DNA from: Elusimicrobia bacterium GWA2_66_18
Lineage (GTDB): Bacteria > Elusimicrobiota > Elusimicrobia > UBA1565 > UBA9628
DNA length: 64,000 nucleotides
Reading direction: 5' to 3'
Assembly (NCBI GenBank): GCA_001799675.1
Contig: MGTX01000014.1
Location: 1 to 64,000, forward strand
The notes beneath the pieces were generated by a model. It ran no database searches. It saw nothing but the letters and a program-made list of their open reading frames with translations, and was not told where the DNA came from. Positions 1-8,640 of this stretch are shown piece by piece. The stretch's first letter is position 1. Every line of letters begins with the position of its first letter. The position numbers and the translations under genes were made by a program.

Positions 1-1
1 G

Positions 2-685
2 AAGTTCAATCCGCTGATCAAGGCCGGGAAGGCGGCGGAGGCCAAGAAGGTGCTTCGAACCCAGCTCCGTCCGCTCTACGAGGAGCATCGAAAGGGGATC
101 GACAAGGTCGTCCAATTATCGCGGGCGATGGGAATCAAGCTCGAGCGGCAGATCACCTCGGCCGCGTCCGAGCGGGAAATCATGATCGGAGGGCCGCTCT
201 ACCACAAGATCATTCAGATTAAGGACATCATCTCGGACGTTCTTCCCCCGCCCATGTACATCATTGAGACGTACTTGACGGCCATGGAACTGGTGGACGC
301 TGCGGATGCCCGCGCCTCGCGAGAACGGATCGACGAACTCGCGAAATACGGGCTCAAGCTGCGGGACGGCAACGTGCAGACGAAAACTCCAGGCTACAAT
401 GAGCGCCTTCCTCAATGGGAGAGAGCGCTCCCCAACGACGTTCCGGAGGAGCCTGAGCTTGAGCGGTTGATGACGAAGGCGTCGGTTGAACCTGCTCATA
501 AGTTTTTTGATGCCTTGGAGAATCGGCTGATCCCGGCGACCAAGCGGGGCGACATCGCTGAAGCAAAGAACATCCTCCGAAAAAACATGCTTCCTCTGTA
601 TGAGGAGCACCGGAAGAATATCGACCTGCTGGTCGCGGCGGCCGACAAGAAATTCAAGGAAATCGAGAGGAAAATCCTGGAATAG
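2..685 (+). CDS. Chemoreceptor-type sensor-domain protein, 5' end outside window
   Basis: This is the C-terminal part of a gene that begins before the window; the reading frame is open from base 2, so the ORF-track ATG at 50 is internal. The visible residues form the second helical module of the same protein type as the next gene, with the LPPPxYIIExYL motif that I associate with ligand-binding regions of some methyl-accepting chemotaxis proteins. No transmembrane, HAMP or signalling domain follows; the protein simply stops after a helical tail. It aligns without gaps to the downstream gene (offset 1214 bp). The first 216 bases are identical, and later stretches differ by scattered substitutions. 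Likely a secreted or periplasmic binding protein of unknown ligand; the assignment to the chemoreceptor fold rests on motif memory. Confidence 0.75.
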   Translation, partial: KFNPLIKAGKAAEAKKVLRTQLRPLYEEHRKGIDKVVQLSRAMGIKLERQITSAASEREIMIGGPLYHKIIQIKDIISDVLPPPMYIIETYLTAMELVDAADARASRERIDELAKYGLKLRDGNVQTKTPGYNERLPQWERALPNDVPEEPELERLMTKASVEPAHKFFDALENRLIPATKRGDIAEAKNILRKNMLPLYEEHRKNIDLLVAAADKKFKEIERKILE

Positions 686-695
686 TCTTTAGGCC

Positions 696-724
696 TTGAC
701 ATAGCGCTATTGATCTGTTATTTC
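696..724 (+). promoter_or_regulatory. Candidate sigma70-type promoter for the sensor-like gene at 775
   Basis: TTGACA at 696-701 is followed after 17 bases by TATTTC at 719-724. A Shine-Dalgarno-like AAAGGGGG lies just before the ATG at 775, after an A-rich tract. This suggests that the two tandem copies are separately transcribed. Confidence 0.5.
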
Positions 725-774
725 ATCTTGGTCCAGCTCGACTAAGCGGTACAAAAAAAAGAAAGGGGGCTATA

Positions 775-1899
775 ATGATAAGTAAGTTGTTGACCGTCTT
801 CCTGGGGAGTGTGATGGTGTTCGCCGGCGCCCCAGCGGCGTCGCGAGCGCAAGGCAGCAGCGACAGATCGATCGGCGGTCCGGCCTATCGCAAGATTATT
901 CTCATGAAAGACCTGATCGCGGACATTCTCCCTCCCCCGGCCTACATCATCGAATCCTATCTGACGGCGCTGAGAGCGGTCGATGAGGCCGAACGAGAAT
1001 CGCCCGATAAGTCGAAGATCAACGCTTTGCTCGAGTATGGACGCCTCCTTAAGGAAGGCGACAGTTCCAAAAGCGAGATGGCCGGCTACTACGAGCGGAT
1101 CAACGTTTGGAAAAAGGACCTCTCCGAGGAGAACGAGGACTGGAAGGCGATCAAGCACAACCTGGTCAAGGTCTCCTTCGATCCGGCGAAAAAATTCTTC
1201 GAGATCCGGGACACGAAGTTCAATCCGCTGATCAAGGCCGGGAAGGCGGCGGAGGCCAAGAAGGTGCTTCGAACCCAGCTCCGTCCGCTCTACGAGGAGC
1301 ATCGAAAGGGGATCGACAAGGTCGTCCAATTATCGCGGGCGATGGGAATCAAGCTCGAGCGGCAGATCACCTCGGCCGCGTCCGAGCGGGAAATCATGAT
1401 CGGAGGGCCGCTCTACCACAAGATCATTCAGCTCAAAGACGTCGTCTCGGACGTTCTTCCCCCGCCCATGTACATCATTGAGACGTACTTGACGGCCATG
1501 GAACTGCTGGACGCGGCGGATGCCCGCGCCTCGCGAGAACGGATCGACGAACTCGCGAAATACGGGCTCAGGCTGCGGGACGGCAACGTGCAGACGAAAA
1601 CTCCAGGCTACAATGAGCGCCTTCCTCAATGGGAGAAAGCGCTCTCAAGCGACACTCCGGACGACCGCGAGATCAAGCGGTTGATGACGAAGGCCTCGGT
1701 GGAGCCCGCCCAGAAGTTTTTTGACGCCCTGGAGAATCAGTTGATTCCGGCTGTGAAGCAGGGCAACGTCACGGAAGCCAAGAACATCCTCCGGAAAGAT
1801 ATGCTTTCTCTGTATGAGGAGCACCGGAAGAATATCGACCTGCTGGTCGCGGCGGCCGACAAGAAATTCAAGGAAGTCGAGAGAGAAGTCCTGAAGTAG
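775..1899 (+). CDS. Exported protein with two chemoreceptor-type ligand-binding modules
   Basis: 374 aa. A signal peptide (about residues 1-26, ending near SRAQG) is followed by two homologous all-helical modules, about residues 34-190 and 208-370. Each opens with IGGPxYxKII and carries LPPPxYIIExYL, then an FDPAKKFF or VEPAQKFF segment and LYEEHRKxID near its end. In chemoreceptors of the kind I recall, this module sits between two membrane helices ahead of HAMP and signalling domains; here there is no membrane anchor or output domain. The protein may be a free periplasmic ligand-binding protein or a decoy/partner of a receptor encoded elsewhere. It has its own promoter and a good Shine-Dalgarno site, and is a tandem paralogue of the truncated gene upstream. 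Function unproven. Confidence 0.8.
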   Translation: MISKLLTVFLGSVMVFAGAPAASRAQGSSDRSIGGPAYRKIILMKDLIADILPPPAYIIESYLTALRAVDEAERESPDKSKINALLEYGRLLKEGDSSKSEMAGYYERINVWKKDLSEENEDWKAIKHNLVKVSFDPAKKFFEIRDTKFNPLIKAGKAAEAKKVLRTQLRPLYEEHRKGIDKVVQLSRAMGIKLERQITSAASEREIMIGGPLYHKIIQLKDVVSDVLPPPMYIIETYLTAMELLDAADARASRERIDELAKYGLRLRDGNVQTKTPGYNERLPQWEKALSSDTPDDREIKRLMTKASVEPAQKFFDALENQLIPAVKQGNVTEAKNILRKDMLSLYEEHRKNIDLLVAAADKKFKEVEREVLK

Positions 1900-1922: not shown

Positions 1923-1950
1923 AGGGGCCCGTCATTGCTGACGGGCCCCT
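1923..1950. terminator. Bidirectional hairpin terminator
   Basis: A perfect 12-bp inverted repeat, AGGGGCCCGTCA / TGACGGGCCCCT, with a TTGC loop lies between two convergent genes (stop at 1899 on plus, stop at 1987 on minus). The downstream tract CTTCGTCT on plus is only moderately T-rich, so efficiency is uncertain, but the position suits a shared terminator. Confidence 0.75.
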
Positions 1951-3264: not shown

Positions 3265-4320
<1,056 letters not shown>

Positions 4321-4337
4321 CCCCGGATGAGGCGCTC

Positions 4338-4709
4338 ATGAAGGCCGCGGCGGTCCTGCTCTCGCTGACGATCTCGGCGCACGCGGCCCCCGCCGTCGCG
4401 CCTTCCACGATGGCCGCCGCGGGCGTCGAGCCGATCACCGTGACGGCCCCGCGTCCCGTCCTCGACCCCGCGGAAATTCCCACGCTGCAGACCGCTCGGA
4501 CCGCGGGCGCGGTCGCGGGCGGCATGGGGGTGGGGCTCATGAGCTATGTCGTCTTTTTTAGCGCCGGAGGCCCCTTCGGCTGGGCCGCCGCCCTGATCTT
4601 CGTCGGCGGGATGACCGCCTACCTCTCCCATCGGCGGCTCCAGGAGCATCAGGACTTCCCGCCGACGCCGCCCCCCGCCCCGGCGCCCTCCAAGAGCGGC
4701 GCTATTTAA
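4338..4709 (+). CDS. Small exported/membrane protein of unknown function
   Basis: 123 aa, read in the frame of a longer shadow ORF; the ATG at 4338 lies 17 bases after the aldolase stop. A signal peptide (residues 1-16, ending AHA) is followed by a Pro/Ala-rich stretch containing ITVTAPRP, then a glycine-rich hydrophobic region from about residue 58 to 95 that can form one or two membrane helices, and a proline-rich tail (PPTPPPAPAP). The stop overlaps the stop of the convergent OPT gene by 8 bases. No family recognised; cotranscription with the aldolase is likely but a functional link is not evident. Confidence 0.6.
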   Translation: MKAAAVLLSLTISAHAAPAVAPSTMAAAGVEPITVTAPRPVLDPAEIPTLQTARTAGAVAGGMGVGLMSYVVFFSAGGPFGWAAALIFVGGMTAYLSHRRLQEHQDFPPTPPPAPAPSKSGAI

Positions 4710-6579
4710 GGACGGCGGTCTCCAGCAGGATCAGGATCAGGCCGATGATCGAGCCGCCGGCGATGGCGCCGGCGCAGACCGTCTCCTGATTGTCCACCAG
4801 GGCTCGGAATCCCAGGGACTTCCGGTCCGTGAAATACTTCCCGGCCAGCCAGAAGAGGAACGCGCCCAGGGCCATCGAGAGCGAGTCGCTGAACTTCAGC
4901 ACGAACGCCAGGCCCAGGCCGACGCCCGAGACGGGGAAGCGGCCCTGGGTGCGTTGGTTGGCGACCTCGATGACGAGGCCGATCACGGCGCCGACCGCGA
5001 TGGCCAGCTGGGCCGTGGGATGGAGGAAGCTCAGGCCTTTGGTCAGGACCACGGCCACCGCCTTCCAGATTTGCGCGCCCGGCATGGGCAGCCGGTCCGA
5101 CATCAGGATGGAGATGTCGCCGTGGAAGATGGCGTAGAACACGGGCACCGCCACGAAGGCGCCGGCGAAGATGCCGAGGGCGTGCCCCAAGGCCTGGTGG
5201 CGAGGCTTGCCGCCCAGCATGTAGCCGGGCTTGATGTCCATGAGGAGGTTGGCCGCGCTCGAAGCCACCTCGCCCGTGATGCCCGCGGTCATGATGTTCG
5301 TCTTGATGTTGCCCGGGGCCAGCACGCTGTAGGTGAGCTGGGTCAGCTTGCCCAAGGCGCCCGTCGGCGTGATGGAGGTCAGGCCCGTGGCGTTGACCGC
5401 GATGAGGGTGAAGACGAAGACCAGCGGCACGGCGATGACGCCCAGCCACCAATGCACGCCGAAGAAGGCGTGTCCCGCCCAGACCGTGGCCAAGCCCATG
5501 ACGGGGATGCCCGCCGCGAAGAGCCACATGGGAAGCTCGATGTCCTTGAGCACGTCCTCCCCCCGGGAGCCCTTCTTGGCGAACATGCCGCGGAAGGATT
5601 CCAGGATGACCTTGGGCTTGGACAGGAAGGAGTAGAGAGAGGAGGTCGTCATCAGCGCCACTCCGCCCCAGAGAGCCCACATCGTGATGTTCTTGAAGCC
5701 GGGGCCCGCGATGACGCCTTTCTGGATGAGGATGGGGGCCAGGACCATGTAGTTGACGACGGCCCCGATCATGAGGGACGCCGCGGTCTTCGTGCCCATC
5801 AGGCCGCCGGCCGCGACCATGACGATGGATGTGTCGAAGGCGACGGTGAGGTCCTTGAGCGGCGTGCCCAGGATCCTCGGCGTGAACCACTTGTAGACGA
5901 GGTCGTCCCATTGCGCCGGCAGCGAAAGCCGGGACAGACGCATGGCCCCCATCACCTTCTCGTTGCATAGGGTCTCGATGAGCGCCGAGACGCCCGCGCC
6001 CGCGCCCAGGAGCTTGGCCTTGAAGACTCCCTGCGCGCCCGCGCCGGCGTGGAGGTTGTCCATCACGATGCCGGCCGCGTAGCCCTCGGGAAACGGGAGC
6101 TGCTCGTCGTTGATGAAGCGCTTCTTGAGCGGGAAGGCGAAGAGCACGCCCAGCAGGCCCAGCAGGATGATCCAGACCATGGCGTGCTGCCATGGGATGA
6201 CCTGCCCGGTCACCGCCATGTAGGCCGGCATGGAGGAGATGAGAGGAGAAGTCATGTAGCCCGCGCTCGTCGCGATGGACTGCATGGCGTTGTTCTCGAG
6301 GACCGTCATCTCGTCGCCGATCTTGAGCTTGGAGAAGACCTTGAAGATGGCGAAGGAGAGGATGACCGAGGTGATGCCCACGCCCAGCGTCCAGCCCGTG
6401 CGGATGCCGACATAGAGATTGGTGAGGCTGAGGACCCCTCCCAGGATCATCCCCGTCAGCGCGGAGCGCAAGTTGAGCTGGGGCATGTCGCCCTGGTACA
6501 CGTTCTTGAGCCACCAGCGGTCCTTCTCCGCCAGGCTCATTGCGTGGATCTGCTCGTGGGTCAACTCGAGGATTGCCAT
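4702..6579 (-). CDS. OPT-family oligopeptide transporter
   Basis: 625 aa from the ATG at 6579; the longer ORF-track start reads through the oxidoreductase gene and is rejected. The protein has many hydrophobic helices (about 14-16), with the early block SLTNLYVGIRTGWTLGVG and the MTSPLISSMPAYMAVTG segment typical of the bacterial OPT (oligopeptide transporter) family. It probably imports short peptides or metal chelates with protons. The start has no clear Shine-Dalgarno; a TATTAT box lies about 18 bases upstream on the minus strand, which would give a leader of only about a dozen bases. It is divergent from the porG gene. Confidence 0.88.
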   Translation of the reverse strand: MAILELTHEQIHAMSLAEKDRWWLKNVYQGDMPQLNLRSALTGMILGGVLSLTNLYVGIRTGWTLGVGITSVILSFAIFKVFSKLKIGDEMTVLENNAMQSIATSAGYMTSPLISSMPAYMAVTGQVIPWQHAMVWIILLGLLGVLFAFPLKKRFINDEQLPFPEGYAAGIVMDNLHAGAGAQGVFKAKLLGAGAGVSALIETLCNEKVMGAMRLSRLSLPAQWDDLVYKWFTPRILGTPLKDLTVAFDTSIVMVAAGGLMGTKTAASLMIGAVVNYMVLAPILIQKGVIAGPGFKNITMWALWGGVALMTTSSLYSFLSKPKVILESFRGMFAKKGSRGEDVLKDIELPMWLFAAGIPVMGLATVWAGHAFFGVHWWLGVIAVPLVFVFTLIAVNATGLTSITPTGALGKLTQLTYSVLAPGNIKTNIMTAGITGEVASSAANLLMDIKPGYMLGGKPRHQALGHALGIFAGAFVAVPVFYAIFHGDISILMSDRLPMPGAQIWKAVAVVLTKGLSFLHPTAQLAIAVGAVIGLVIEVANQRTQGRFPVSGVGLGLAFVLKFSDSLSMALGAFLFWLAGKYFTDRKSLGFRALVDNQETVCAGAIAGGSIIGLILILLETAVLK

Positions 6580-6642
6580 AGGTGTCGGGAAGTGTACATA
6601 ATACCCGGGTTCCCGGGAGCCGTTCCCCCGGAGGGAGGCGCG

Positions 6643-7221
6643 ATGTTCGAGATCCGATTCCACGGCCGCGGCGGGCAAGGCACCGTCCTGCTGGCCAAGA
6701 TGATCGCCGACGTGGTCCTGCGCTCGGGCCGCGGCGAATGCATGGCCATCCCCGAGTTCGGCGTCGAGAGGCGCGGCGCGCCCGTCCTGGCCTACGCGCG
6801 CGTCTCCGATAAGCCTATCCACGTGCGCACCCGCATCTACGCGCCCGACGCGGTGGCCGTCCTCGACACCGCTTTCGCCAACAATCCCGCGCTGACCGCC
6901 GGCCTCAAGAAGGGCGGCGTTATCGTGCTCAACACCGAGGAGCCGCCGGCCGCGCTGGCCGCGCGCTTCCCCGGATTTGCGACGCGGGCCGTCCCCGCCA
7001 AGCGCATCGCGCTCGCCCACCAGCTGGGCTCGGCGACGAGCCCCGTCGTCAACACCGCGATGTGCGGCGCCATCTGCGCCATTTTCGACCTGGCCGACCA
7101 GGCCGCGCTCGAAGCCGCGATCCGGGAGGCCGTGCCCGTCAAGCACGACGAGAACGCCGCCGCCGCGCGCGAGGCGTTCCTTCTCTGCTCCCGCAAGGAG
7201 AAGGCTCATGCCGCGGCTTAA
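6643..7221 (+). CDS. porG: 2-oxoacid:ferredoxin oxidoreductase, gamma subunit
   Basis: 192 aa. The start at 6643 follows GGAGGG and gives the canonical opening MFEIRFHGRGGQGTVLLAKM, the gamma-domain signature of pyruvate/2-ketoacid:ferredoxin oxidoreductases. The ORF-track start at 6049 is a read-through of the OPT antisense. It is the first of four overlapping genes (gamma, delta, alpha, beta), the standard order for the four-subunit enzyme that converts pyruvate (or another 2-oxoacid), CoA and oxidised ferredoxin to acyl-CoA, CO2 and reduced ferredoxin. The motif PEFGVERRGAPV is also typical. Confidence 0.93.
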   Translation: MFEIRFHGRGGQGTVLLAKMIADVVLRSGRGECMAIPEFGVERRGAPVLAYARVSDKPIHVRTRIYAPDAVAVLDTAFANNPALTAGLKKGGVIVLNTEEPPAALAARFPGFATRAVPAKRIALAHQLGSATSPVVNTAMCGAICAIFDLADQAALEAAIREAVPVKHDENAAAAREAFLLCSRKEKAHAAA

Positions 7222-7489
7222 GGACGAACCCCTCTCCACGCCCGTCGTCACGCCCTCGGCGCGTCCCATGTCCGAGAATCCGACCGGCGACTGGCGCAGC
7301 GTGGCCCCGCGCATCGACGCCGAGAAATGCACCGGCTGCCTCCTCTGCTGGAAGTTCTGCCCCGAGGCCTGCGTGGACGTCGCCGGCGAGGTCCCGAGGA
7401 TCGACCTGCACTACTGCAAGGGCTGCGGCGTCTGCGCGACGGAATGCCCGGCGCACTGCGTCCACATGTCCGAGGAGGCCGCGTCATGA
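7208..7489 (+). CDS. porD: 2-oxoacid:ferredoxin oxidoreductase, delta (ferredoxin) subunit
   Basis: 93 aa. It carries two complete [4Fe-4S] ligand sets, CTGCLLCWKFCPEAC and CKGCGVCATECPAHC, and passes electrons from the catalytic alpha/beta subunits to ferredoxin. The ATG at 7208 lies inside the end of porG (14-base overlap), and its own stop overlaps the porA start by 4 bases (ATGA), so translation of the subunits is probably coupled. Confidence 0.93.
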   Translation: MPRLKDEPLSTPVVTPSARPMSENPTGDWRSVAPRIDAEKCTGCLLCWKFCPEACVDVAGEVPRIDLHYCKGCGVCATECPAHCVHMSEEAAS

Positions 7490-8640
7490 AGAAGGTCCTG
7501 ATGGGCAATCACGCCGCCACGCTGGGCGCGGCCCTGGCGCGCGTCCAGGTGGTGGCGGCCTACCCGATCACGCCGGCGACCCAGATCGTCGAGCTCATCG
7601 CGGAAATGTCGGCCAAGGGGACCTTCCCCGGAAAGTTCCTGCGCGTGGAATCCGAGCACTCCGCCATGGCCGCGCTCCTCGGCGCCGCCACGGCCGGAGC
7701 GCGCACGTTCACCGCGACCTCTTCCCAGGGCCTGGCCTACATGCACGAGCTCCTGCATTGGGTCTCCGGCGCCAGGCTTCCCGTCGTGATGGTGGACGTT
7801 AACCGCGCCCTGGCCGCGCCCTGGAACCTCTGGACGGACCAGACCGACTCCCTCTCCCAGCGCGACACCGGCTGGCTGCAGTTCTACTGCGCGACCAACC
7901 AGGAAGTCCTCGACACCGTGCTCATGGCCTACAAGGTGTCCGAAAATCTCCTCCTGCCCTCCATGGTCATGCTCGACGGCTTCACCCTCTCCCACGTCTA
8001 CGAGCCCGTCGACGTCCCGGACCAGAAGGCCGTGGACGCCTTCCTGCCCCCTTTCAAGCCCGCGGCTTTCCTCGACGTGAAGAACCCCGGGGCCTTCGGC
8101 TCGCTGGAGACCCCGAAGCCCTACTTCCGCCTGCGCCGGCGCATCGCCGTCGACATGGACCGCGCCGAGGCGCTCGTCGAGCAGGTCGGCGCGGACTTCG
8201 AGCGCTCCTTCGGCCGCGGCTACGGGGCCGTCGAGAGCTACCGCAGCCAGGACGCCGACGTCAGCCTGGTCTGCTCCGGCGCCGTGGGCTCCACGGCCAA
8301 GCAAGCCGTGGATGAGCTGCGCGCCGAGGGCCACGCGGCGGGTCTTCTCCGCTTCCGGCTCTTTAGGCCCTTCCCGGCCGCGGCGCTCAAGCGCCTGACG
8401 CGGCCCGACATGAAGCTGGCCGTCGTGGACCGCAACTACTCACCCGGCCACCAGGGGATATTCTGCGAAGAGATCAAAGCCTCGCTTTACGCAACCGAAC
8501 GCAGACCGGAAGTGTACGGCTTCGTGGCGGGTCTGGGCGGCGGCGACATCACCGTCGAGCTTCTCAAGGAGATCTGGCATGAAGTCAAGGCGGGCACGGC
8601 CGACCCGGTCTCCCCGCTTTGGATGGAGGAGGCCCGATGA
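7486..8640 (+). CDS. porA: 2-oxoacid:ferredoxin oxidoreductase, alpha subunit
   Basis: 384 aa from the overlapping ATG at 7486. The N-terminus MKKVLMGNHAATLGAALARV leads to YPITPAT, the pyrimidine-binding motif of the alpha chain, and the C-terminal half shows the transketolase-C-like fold (SLVCSGAVGST, VDRNYSPGHQG). Together with the beta chain it forms the thiamine-diphosphate active site. Length and motifs fit pyruvate ferredoxin oxidoreductase PorA; other 2-oxoacids (2-oxoisovalerate) cannot be excluded by sequence reading alone. Confidence 0.93.
   Translation: MKKVLMGNHAATLGAALARVQVVAAYPITPATQIVELIAEMSAKGTFPGKFLRVESEHSAMAALLGAATAGARTFTATSSQGLAYMHELLHWVSGARLPVVMVDVNRALAAPWNLWTDQTDSLSQRDTGWLQFYCATNQEVLDTVLMAYKVSENLLLPSMVMLDGFTLSHVYEPVDVPDQKAVDAFLPPFKPAAFLDVKNPGAFGSLETPKPYFRLRRRIAVDMDRAEALVEQVGADFERSFGRGYGAVESYRSQDADVSLVCSGAVGSTAKQAVDELRAEGHAAGLLRFRLFRPFPAAALKRLTRPDMKLAVVDRNYSPGHQGIFCEEIKASLYATERRPEVYGFVAGLGGGDITVELLKEIWHEVKAGTADPVSPLWMEEAR

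Follow-up and report, generated by a model that had tools for sequence, protein, structure and literature searches.

What is the role of an apparently exported protein that consists of nothing but the sensor part of a chemoreceptor? The question is raised by two tandem genes, here called A and B, at the very start of the analysed stretch of DNA (the window), which comprises 64,000 nt of a contig from Elusimicrobia bacterium GWA2_66_18. The initial annotation had described them, from the letters alone, as two adjacent exported proteins built only of LPPP-type modules, and both reading frames (2-685 and 775-1899) proved to be right.

Two tandem genes across a contig break

According to sequence analysis and domain searches, proteins A and B are composed of a signal peptide and two LPPP modules of ~165 residues each, and nothing more (Table 1). 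Their export to the periplasm is predicted from the signal peptide, which in B is probably cleaved after SRA, at residue 25. The claimed absence of a membrane or signalling region also held for both proteins. Sequence and Pfam analyses revealed no membrane anchor past the signal peptide, no TM helices flanking the sensor, no signalling domain and nothing beyond module 2; the MCP signalling domain (PF00015) was not detected by the domain search in either protein. Downstream of gene B lies a porin gene in convergent orientation, and the hairpin between them is a possible terminator with a weak T tract; it was not called by the terminator/promoter scan.

Table 1. Positions in the window of genes A and B, their modules and adjoining elements
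Feature	Positions	Strand	Basis or comment
Candidate gene-conversion tract	1-217	+	Identical to 1215-1431; within the 249-nt A/B identical run
Gene A, 3' part, codons 148-373	2-685	+	End of module 1 and entire module 2
Gene A, LPPP module 1, C-terminal portion	2-157	+	Profile match, 97-147 of 148
Gene A, LPPP module 2	182-679	+	Motif LPPPMYIIETYL at 242-277
Block GCCTTGACATAGCG..TGATCTGTTATTTCAT ahead of gene B	693-725	+	Alignment; also ahead of gene A on contig C34
Gene B, complete, predicted secreted two-module protein, 374 aa	775-1899	+	
Gene B, predicted signal peptide	775-849	+	Sequence, hydrophobic N-terminus; low confidence in structure model
Gene B, LPPP module 1	871-1371	+	Profile match; motif LPPPAYIIESYL at 928-963
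Gene B, LPPP module 2	1396-1893	+	Profile match; motif LPPPMYIIETYL at 1456-1491
Hairpin GGGGCCCGTCATTGCTGACGGGCCCC in the gene B/porin gene interval	1924-1949	.	Sequence; possible terminator

Position 1 of the window is base 1 of its contig (C14), and the 5' end of gene A was found on the reverse strand of another contig (C34) of the same genome, whose assembly totals 2.79 Mb in 34 contigs, with a completeness of 94.7%. C34 (reverse) ends with the same 49 nt with which the window begins. Such an overlap of exactly 49 identical nt is expected if the assembler halts within an exact repeat. Once C34 and C14 are joined, gene A codes for 373 aa with 86% identity to B. The two contigs break off within an exact repeat, and the join takes the simplest path through it. 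The C34 portion shows up as a third match in the genome, at 1-480 (reverse), with 91% identity to 784-1263. Thus, the upstream extension proposed for counting the copies located the start of gene A and gave a copy number of at least two; additional identical units of 1,214 nt could have been collapsed in the assembly. The correct binning of the window's contig is supported by an aldolase encoded on it, which is 82-89% identical in 15 genus relatives. In these relatives the genes upstream of the aldolase vary, and the insertion site could not be reconstructed. Directly upstream of gene A, and in the same direction, C34 encodes a PilS-like histidine kinase with six TM helices (559-1749, reverse), the reading frame of which has a run of 12 N at its 3' end in the assembly.

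We then compared the two copies. In total, 1119 coding nt could be aligned, of which 97 differ between A and B, and there is one codon indel close to the N-terminus. The longest identical run (249 nt) extends across the contig break; upon random placement of 97 differences, a run of this length was reached in none of 20,000 trials. Codons 126-200 contain just two differences, both within the first 25 codons, versus 12-20 in several other 25-codon blocks. Within the window, the 685-nt stretches 1-685 and 1215-1899 are free of indels and their differences come in patches, as had been annotated. The reported identity of the first 216 bases (1-216 versus 1215-1430) was confirmed as well, except that its true extent is 217 nt (1-217 versus 1215-1431). 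Recent duplication or ongoing gene conversion had been put forward to account for this pattern. The plot of A/B identity, with one 249-nt identical run and divergent blocks elsewhere, and the tandem arrangement of the pair fit recent gene conversion without proving it. Gene conversion between A and B would be the natural reading, with which the pattern is consistent; a recent partial duplication is possible in its place. Overall, dN is 0.07 and dS 0.16, indicating that the copies are under purifying selection. The block at 693-725 is conserved ahead of both genes, which implies that the duplicated unit includes upstream DNA. Containing TTGACA at 696-701, it might be a promoter; a consensus scan gave no full sigma-70 match there.

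The LPPP module in transmembrane chemoreceptors

The modules of A and B are homologous to the sensor region of MCPs, with E-values down to 3e-11 for Rhizobiaceae MCPs in the sequence search. Relatives of the module are encoded in 409 stretches of DNA from many phyla, among which we examined 79 loci. Single-module proteins are encoded by 73 of these; nearly all have TM helices flanking the module, and many have the MCP signalling motif. That the LPPP module is the periplasmic sensor of transmembrane chemoreceptors is therefore well supported. MCPs with such a sensor (in Rhizobium, Sinorhizobium, Azospirillum, Gallionellaceae, Planctomycetota and others) share the module and its conserved residues with A and B at about 30-40% identity. 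In these receptors a single module is enclosed by two membrane helices and accompanied by HAMP and signalling domains, whereas A and B have two modules and only a signal peptide.

The predicted structure points in the same direction. In the AlphaFold2 model the module is a four-helix bundle with helix 1 broken by the LPPP kink (mean pLDDT 91.9 for module 2 of gene B). When a single module was compared with the PDB using Foldseek, the top matches were the sensors of Tar, Vc1313, MCP2201 and Tsr, with TM-scores mostly of 0.45-0.63. The E-values are weak (about 0.03-0.1); nevertheless, the top matches are almost all chemoreceptor sensors. With the full-length model, the TM-score for MCP2201 reached 0.78 by target length. 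Both the homology and the predicted fold thus bear out the initial identification of the modules as chemoreceptor sensors, for which a structure comparison with MCP ligand-binding domains had been suggested. A and B would share their fold with the four-helix-bundle domains of Tar, Tsr and MCP2201 (TarH, 4HB_MCP_1), from which they differ in the LPPP-kinked helix 1 and in being soluble and tandem. A sequence search of the PDB found no sensor of the Tar/Tsr/MCP2201 type, the sequences being too distant. The model is all-helical, and the two-lobed alpha/beta fold of solute-binding proteins is absent from it.

No Pfam or NCBIfam model is specific for the LPPP module. The Pfam family 4HB_MCP_1 (PF12729, cut-off 27 bits) matched B marginally, at 28.4 bits and through short stretches only, and the gene A fragment at 25.9 bits. 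Two of the two-module relatives described below (L011 and L013) scored 18-19 bits, while two others (L012 and L014) were not listed. Among 54 modules from many phyla, this family weakly matched nine at E<0.01, and no other domain model matched them consistently. Pfam matches to TPR1-like, CysG, keratin and other models were rejected as chance helical matches.

Residues conserved in the receptors and in both modules of B are Y7, R75, W79, F108, Y140, H143, R144 and D148. In the alignment of the 54 modules W79 is invariant (54/54), R75, F108, Y140, H143, R144 and D148 are nearly so, and the conserved histidine is present in 52 of the 54 rows. Conservation within the patterns used for retrieval (KDL.ADI and PPP.Y..E.Y) comes partly from hit selection, and all the residues named above lie outside these patterns. 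Judging by their conservation, they may line a ligand pocket, which would be kept in both modules. A literature search on the LPPP motif returned nothing relevant, and no ligand reported for any LPPP module.

Two-module relatives and their neighbourhoods

The other six of the examined loci code for two-module proteins predicted to be secreted. According to the titles of the MAG records, which are possibly loose, these derive from Bdellovibrio (L011), Omnitrophota (L012), Opitutaceae (L013 and L015), Oligoflexia (L014) and Kuenenia (L016). A seventh member (L128, 7426-8523) came from a search of Bdellovibrionota, the phylum of L014. The seven relatives span at least four named phyla; the L015 gene is cut at a contig end and the L016 copy is split in two frames. 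Overall, the two-module form is rare. It occurs in 1 of 341 genomes of the phylum to which the window belongs, in 1 of 384 and 1 of 388 in the phyla of L012 and L013, respectively, and in 3 of 369 in that of L014.

We used a tree of 95 modules (16 from two-module proteins and 79 from receptors) to relate the two forms. Fifteen of the 16 fell into one clade (support 100/99), apart from the 79 receptor modules, the sole exception being module 2 of L128. This single clade suggests one origin of the two-module proteins followed by transfer between phyla, and horizontal transfer would be the cause of their patchy distribution. A viral origin was rejected, as viral contigs contain no relatives, and so was a plasmid origin, because the plasmid matches are ordinary Rhizobiaceae MCPs. 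In L011 (350-1492), unlike in the other members, modules 1 and 2 are close in the tree, as might result from module 2 overwriting module 1 inside the gene.

It might be argued that A and B are just decaying remnants of chemoreceptors that have lost their membrane and signalling parts. The missing signalling domain and the split L016 copy agree with such decay. However, both copies in the window are intact, with dN well below dS, and the two-module proteins form a clade of their own over several phyla, with a constant layout and a signal peptide. We consider this explanation very improbable.

In five of the seven relatives an MCP is encoded within two genes of the two-module gene, and a sixth adjoins an MCP remnant. 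The L012 gene is part of a che operon (CheY, CheA, MCP, two-module gene, CheB, CheR, CheX-like) and overlaps the stop codon of the MCP (ATGA). In L014 the gene follows an MCP that itself bears the LPPP module. This cluster (3933-8418) continues with a small MCP-like helix fragment and a membrane stub (an LPPP module with membrane helices and no signalling domain), after which come an OmpR-type regulator and a kinase. The MCP lies downstream in L015 and L016, in the former behind a terminator-like hairpin, and in L011 the two-module gene is convergent with MCP-CheW. Compared with L015 (595-5252), L013 (7181-8461) has an intact two-module gene, whereas of the MCPs just 565 nt of the start and another piece of 150 nt are left; the sensor was orphaned by a real deletion, or else the locus was mis-assembled. 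L128 has no MCP nearby. Its divergent two-module gene precedes a protease gene and starts 12 nt behind a gene for an SBP_bac_3-like periplasmic protein (6647-8523 for the pair), with which it likely forms one operon. The sensors of the neighbouring MCPs are of several kinds: LPPP in L014, one helical type common to L015 and L016, and in L011 and L012 regions that Pfam does not recognise and that do not resemble each other. Because of these differences, no single partner surface is evident.

In the window's own genome, no MCP is encoded next to A and B. A chemotaxis cluster, unlinked from the pair, is found on contig C31 (1-7196) and comprises CheW, CheA, an FtsA/PilM-like protein of 673 aa that includes a ThiS-like portion, and a CheD fusion. 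The cluster also holds the first part of a membrane receptor, which the contig start truncates beyond a HAMP-like region. The FtsA/PilM-like member is unusual for a che operon. A profile search of the contigs did not detect PF00015 in the assembly. The simplest account is that the MCP is cut by the end of C31; the alternative, a genome lacking chemotaxis, was rejected given CheW, CheA and the truncated receptor. The genes had initially been called orphan, which is correct insofar as they are unlinked from the che cluster here. Nevertheless, the genome does have CheW, CheA, CheD and an MCP start, and in most relatives the two-module gene adjoins receptor genes. The sensor of the genome's MCP shows just a faint resemblance to those of the MCPs beside L015 and L016 (hhalign E-value 0.002, probability only 13%), to which we give no weight, and does not match the LPPP profile.

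Could A and B serve a histidine kinase instead? The PilS-like kinase just upstream of gene A, the regulator and kinase in L014 and a kinase near L128 all point to such a partner. However, the C34 kinase frame contains the N run, the kinase near L128 is oriented the opposite way, and the duplication of the upstream block together with the gene suggests that the gene has its own transcription. We regard a kinase partner as quite improbable.

Possible role of a secreted double sensor

What A and B are composed of, the putative pocket conserved in each module and the repeated placement of two-module genes next to receptors with different types of sensor favour a soluble sensor that acts in trans, and we infer its ligand binding, partner and direction of signalling as follows. 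The two chemoreceptor sensor modules joined in one secreted, periplasmic chain resemble a covalent form of the dimer made by receptor sensors. Each module has the putative pocket of the receptor family and would probably bind the same kind of small ligand. Ligand-bound A or B would then target the sensor region of a receptor in the membrane. The partner would be the MCP where one is encoded beside the two-module gene; in the window's genome it may be the MCP/CheA/CheW cluster, despite the missing linkage, or a different membrane sensor. The gene would have been acquired horizontally and then tandemly duplicated with its upstream block, the copies being under ongoing homogenisation by gene conversion. 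We give nearly even chances to A and B being such a covalent double of the receptor sensor that shares the ligand of the receptor modules. Counting against it, neither the window genes nor L128 have an MCP beside them, the neighbouring MCPs of the other members differ in their sensors, and in L015 the terminator-like hairpin separates the gene from its MCP.

A different possibility is a periplasmic binder without receptor contact, which would buffer, scavenge or carry a small molecule, metal or cofactor, the MCP adjacency reflecting a shared ligand. Several observations agree with this explanation: the strictly conserved polar and aromatic residues of both modules, including the histidine; the stand-alone genes of the window's genome and of L128, the latter just behind the SBP_bac_3-like gene; and the two-module gene left intact in L013 despite deleted or mis-assembled neighbour MCPs. 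On the other hand, an intact MCP lies within two genes at five of the eight known loci, in four different arrangements, the predicted fold is one that signalling sensors have, and mature B contains neither CXXCH nor any cysteine. We therefore find a scavenger or carrier rather unlikely.

Alternatively, the double module might be a decoy or inhibitor that senses nothing and blocks or tunes signalling by replacing the receptor's own dimer partner. Two modules per chain do resemble a receptor dimer, and the MCP adjacent to the L014 gene carries the same module. Binding and shifting of a sensor by a periplasmic protein also has a precedent in DbfQ of Vibrio cholerae, which binds the sensor domain of DbfS (PMC12714742). 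Compared by description only, DbfQ is periplasmic, as predicted for the two-module proteins, and encoded beside a sensor gene; unlike the partner proposed for A and B, that of DbfQ is a histidine kinase. Most neighbouring MCPs are without the LPPP module, however, making like-with-like pairing unavailable there, and both modules retain all the putative pocket residues, for which a decoy would have no use. A decoy thus seems unlikely.

For the trans-acting sensor, the closest parallel in logic is provided by periplasmic binding proteins that report to chemoreceptors, namely LsrB-Tsr, PstS-CtpL and AibA/AibB-TlpB (PMC6321045). A and B may play a role akin to these, sensing in the periplasm in soluble form and acting on a receptor in the membrane. 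The difference is that LsrB, PstS and AibA/AibB are proteins of other kinds, whereas A and B are themselves chemoreceptor-type sensor modules proposed to act in trans. DbfQ, as a periplasmic regulator of a kinase, lends this model a further precedent, again with a protein of another kind.

The sensors of chemoreceptors are viewed as permanent components of the receptors in the membrane, and most known cases of indirect sensing involve ligand-binding proteins of other kinds. Here, sensor modules of chemoreceptors are used as a doubled, stand-alone protein with predicted secretion, which in the window is tandemly duplicated. It is conceivable, if somewhat doubtful, that the family represents a detachable sensory subunit, a secreted sensing dimer that serves receptors with unrelated sensors and travels from phylum to phylum as one gene. 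If true, this would be a new way of assembling a receptor from parts, with a secreted sensor beside receptors of other sensor types. The finding also points to a widespread sensor module, LPPP, which is encoded at hundreds of loci in many phyla and has no domain model of its own. Its soluble two-module form should ease purification and ligand assays for the LPPP module.
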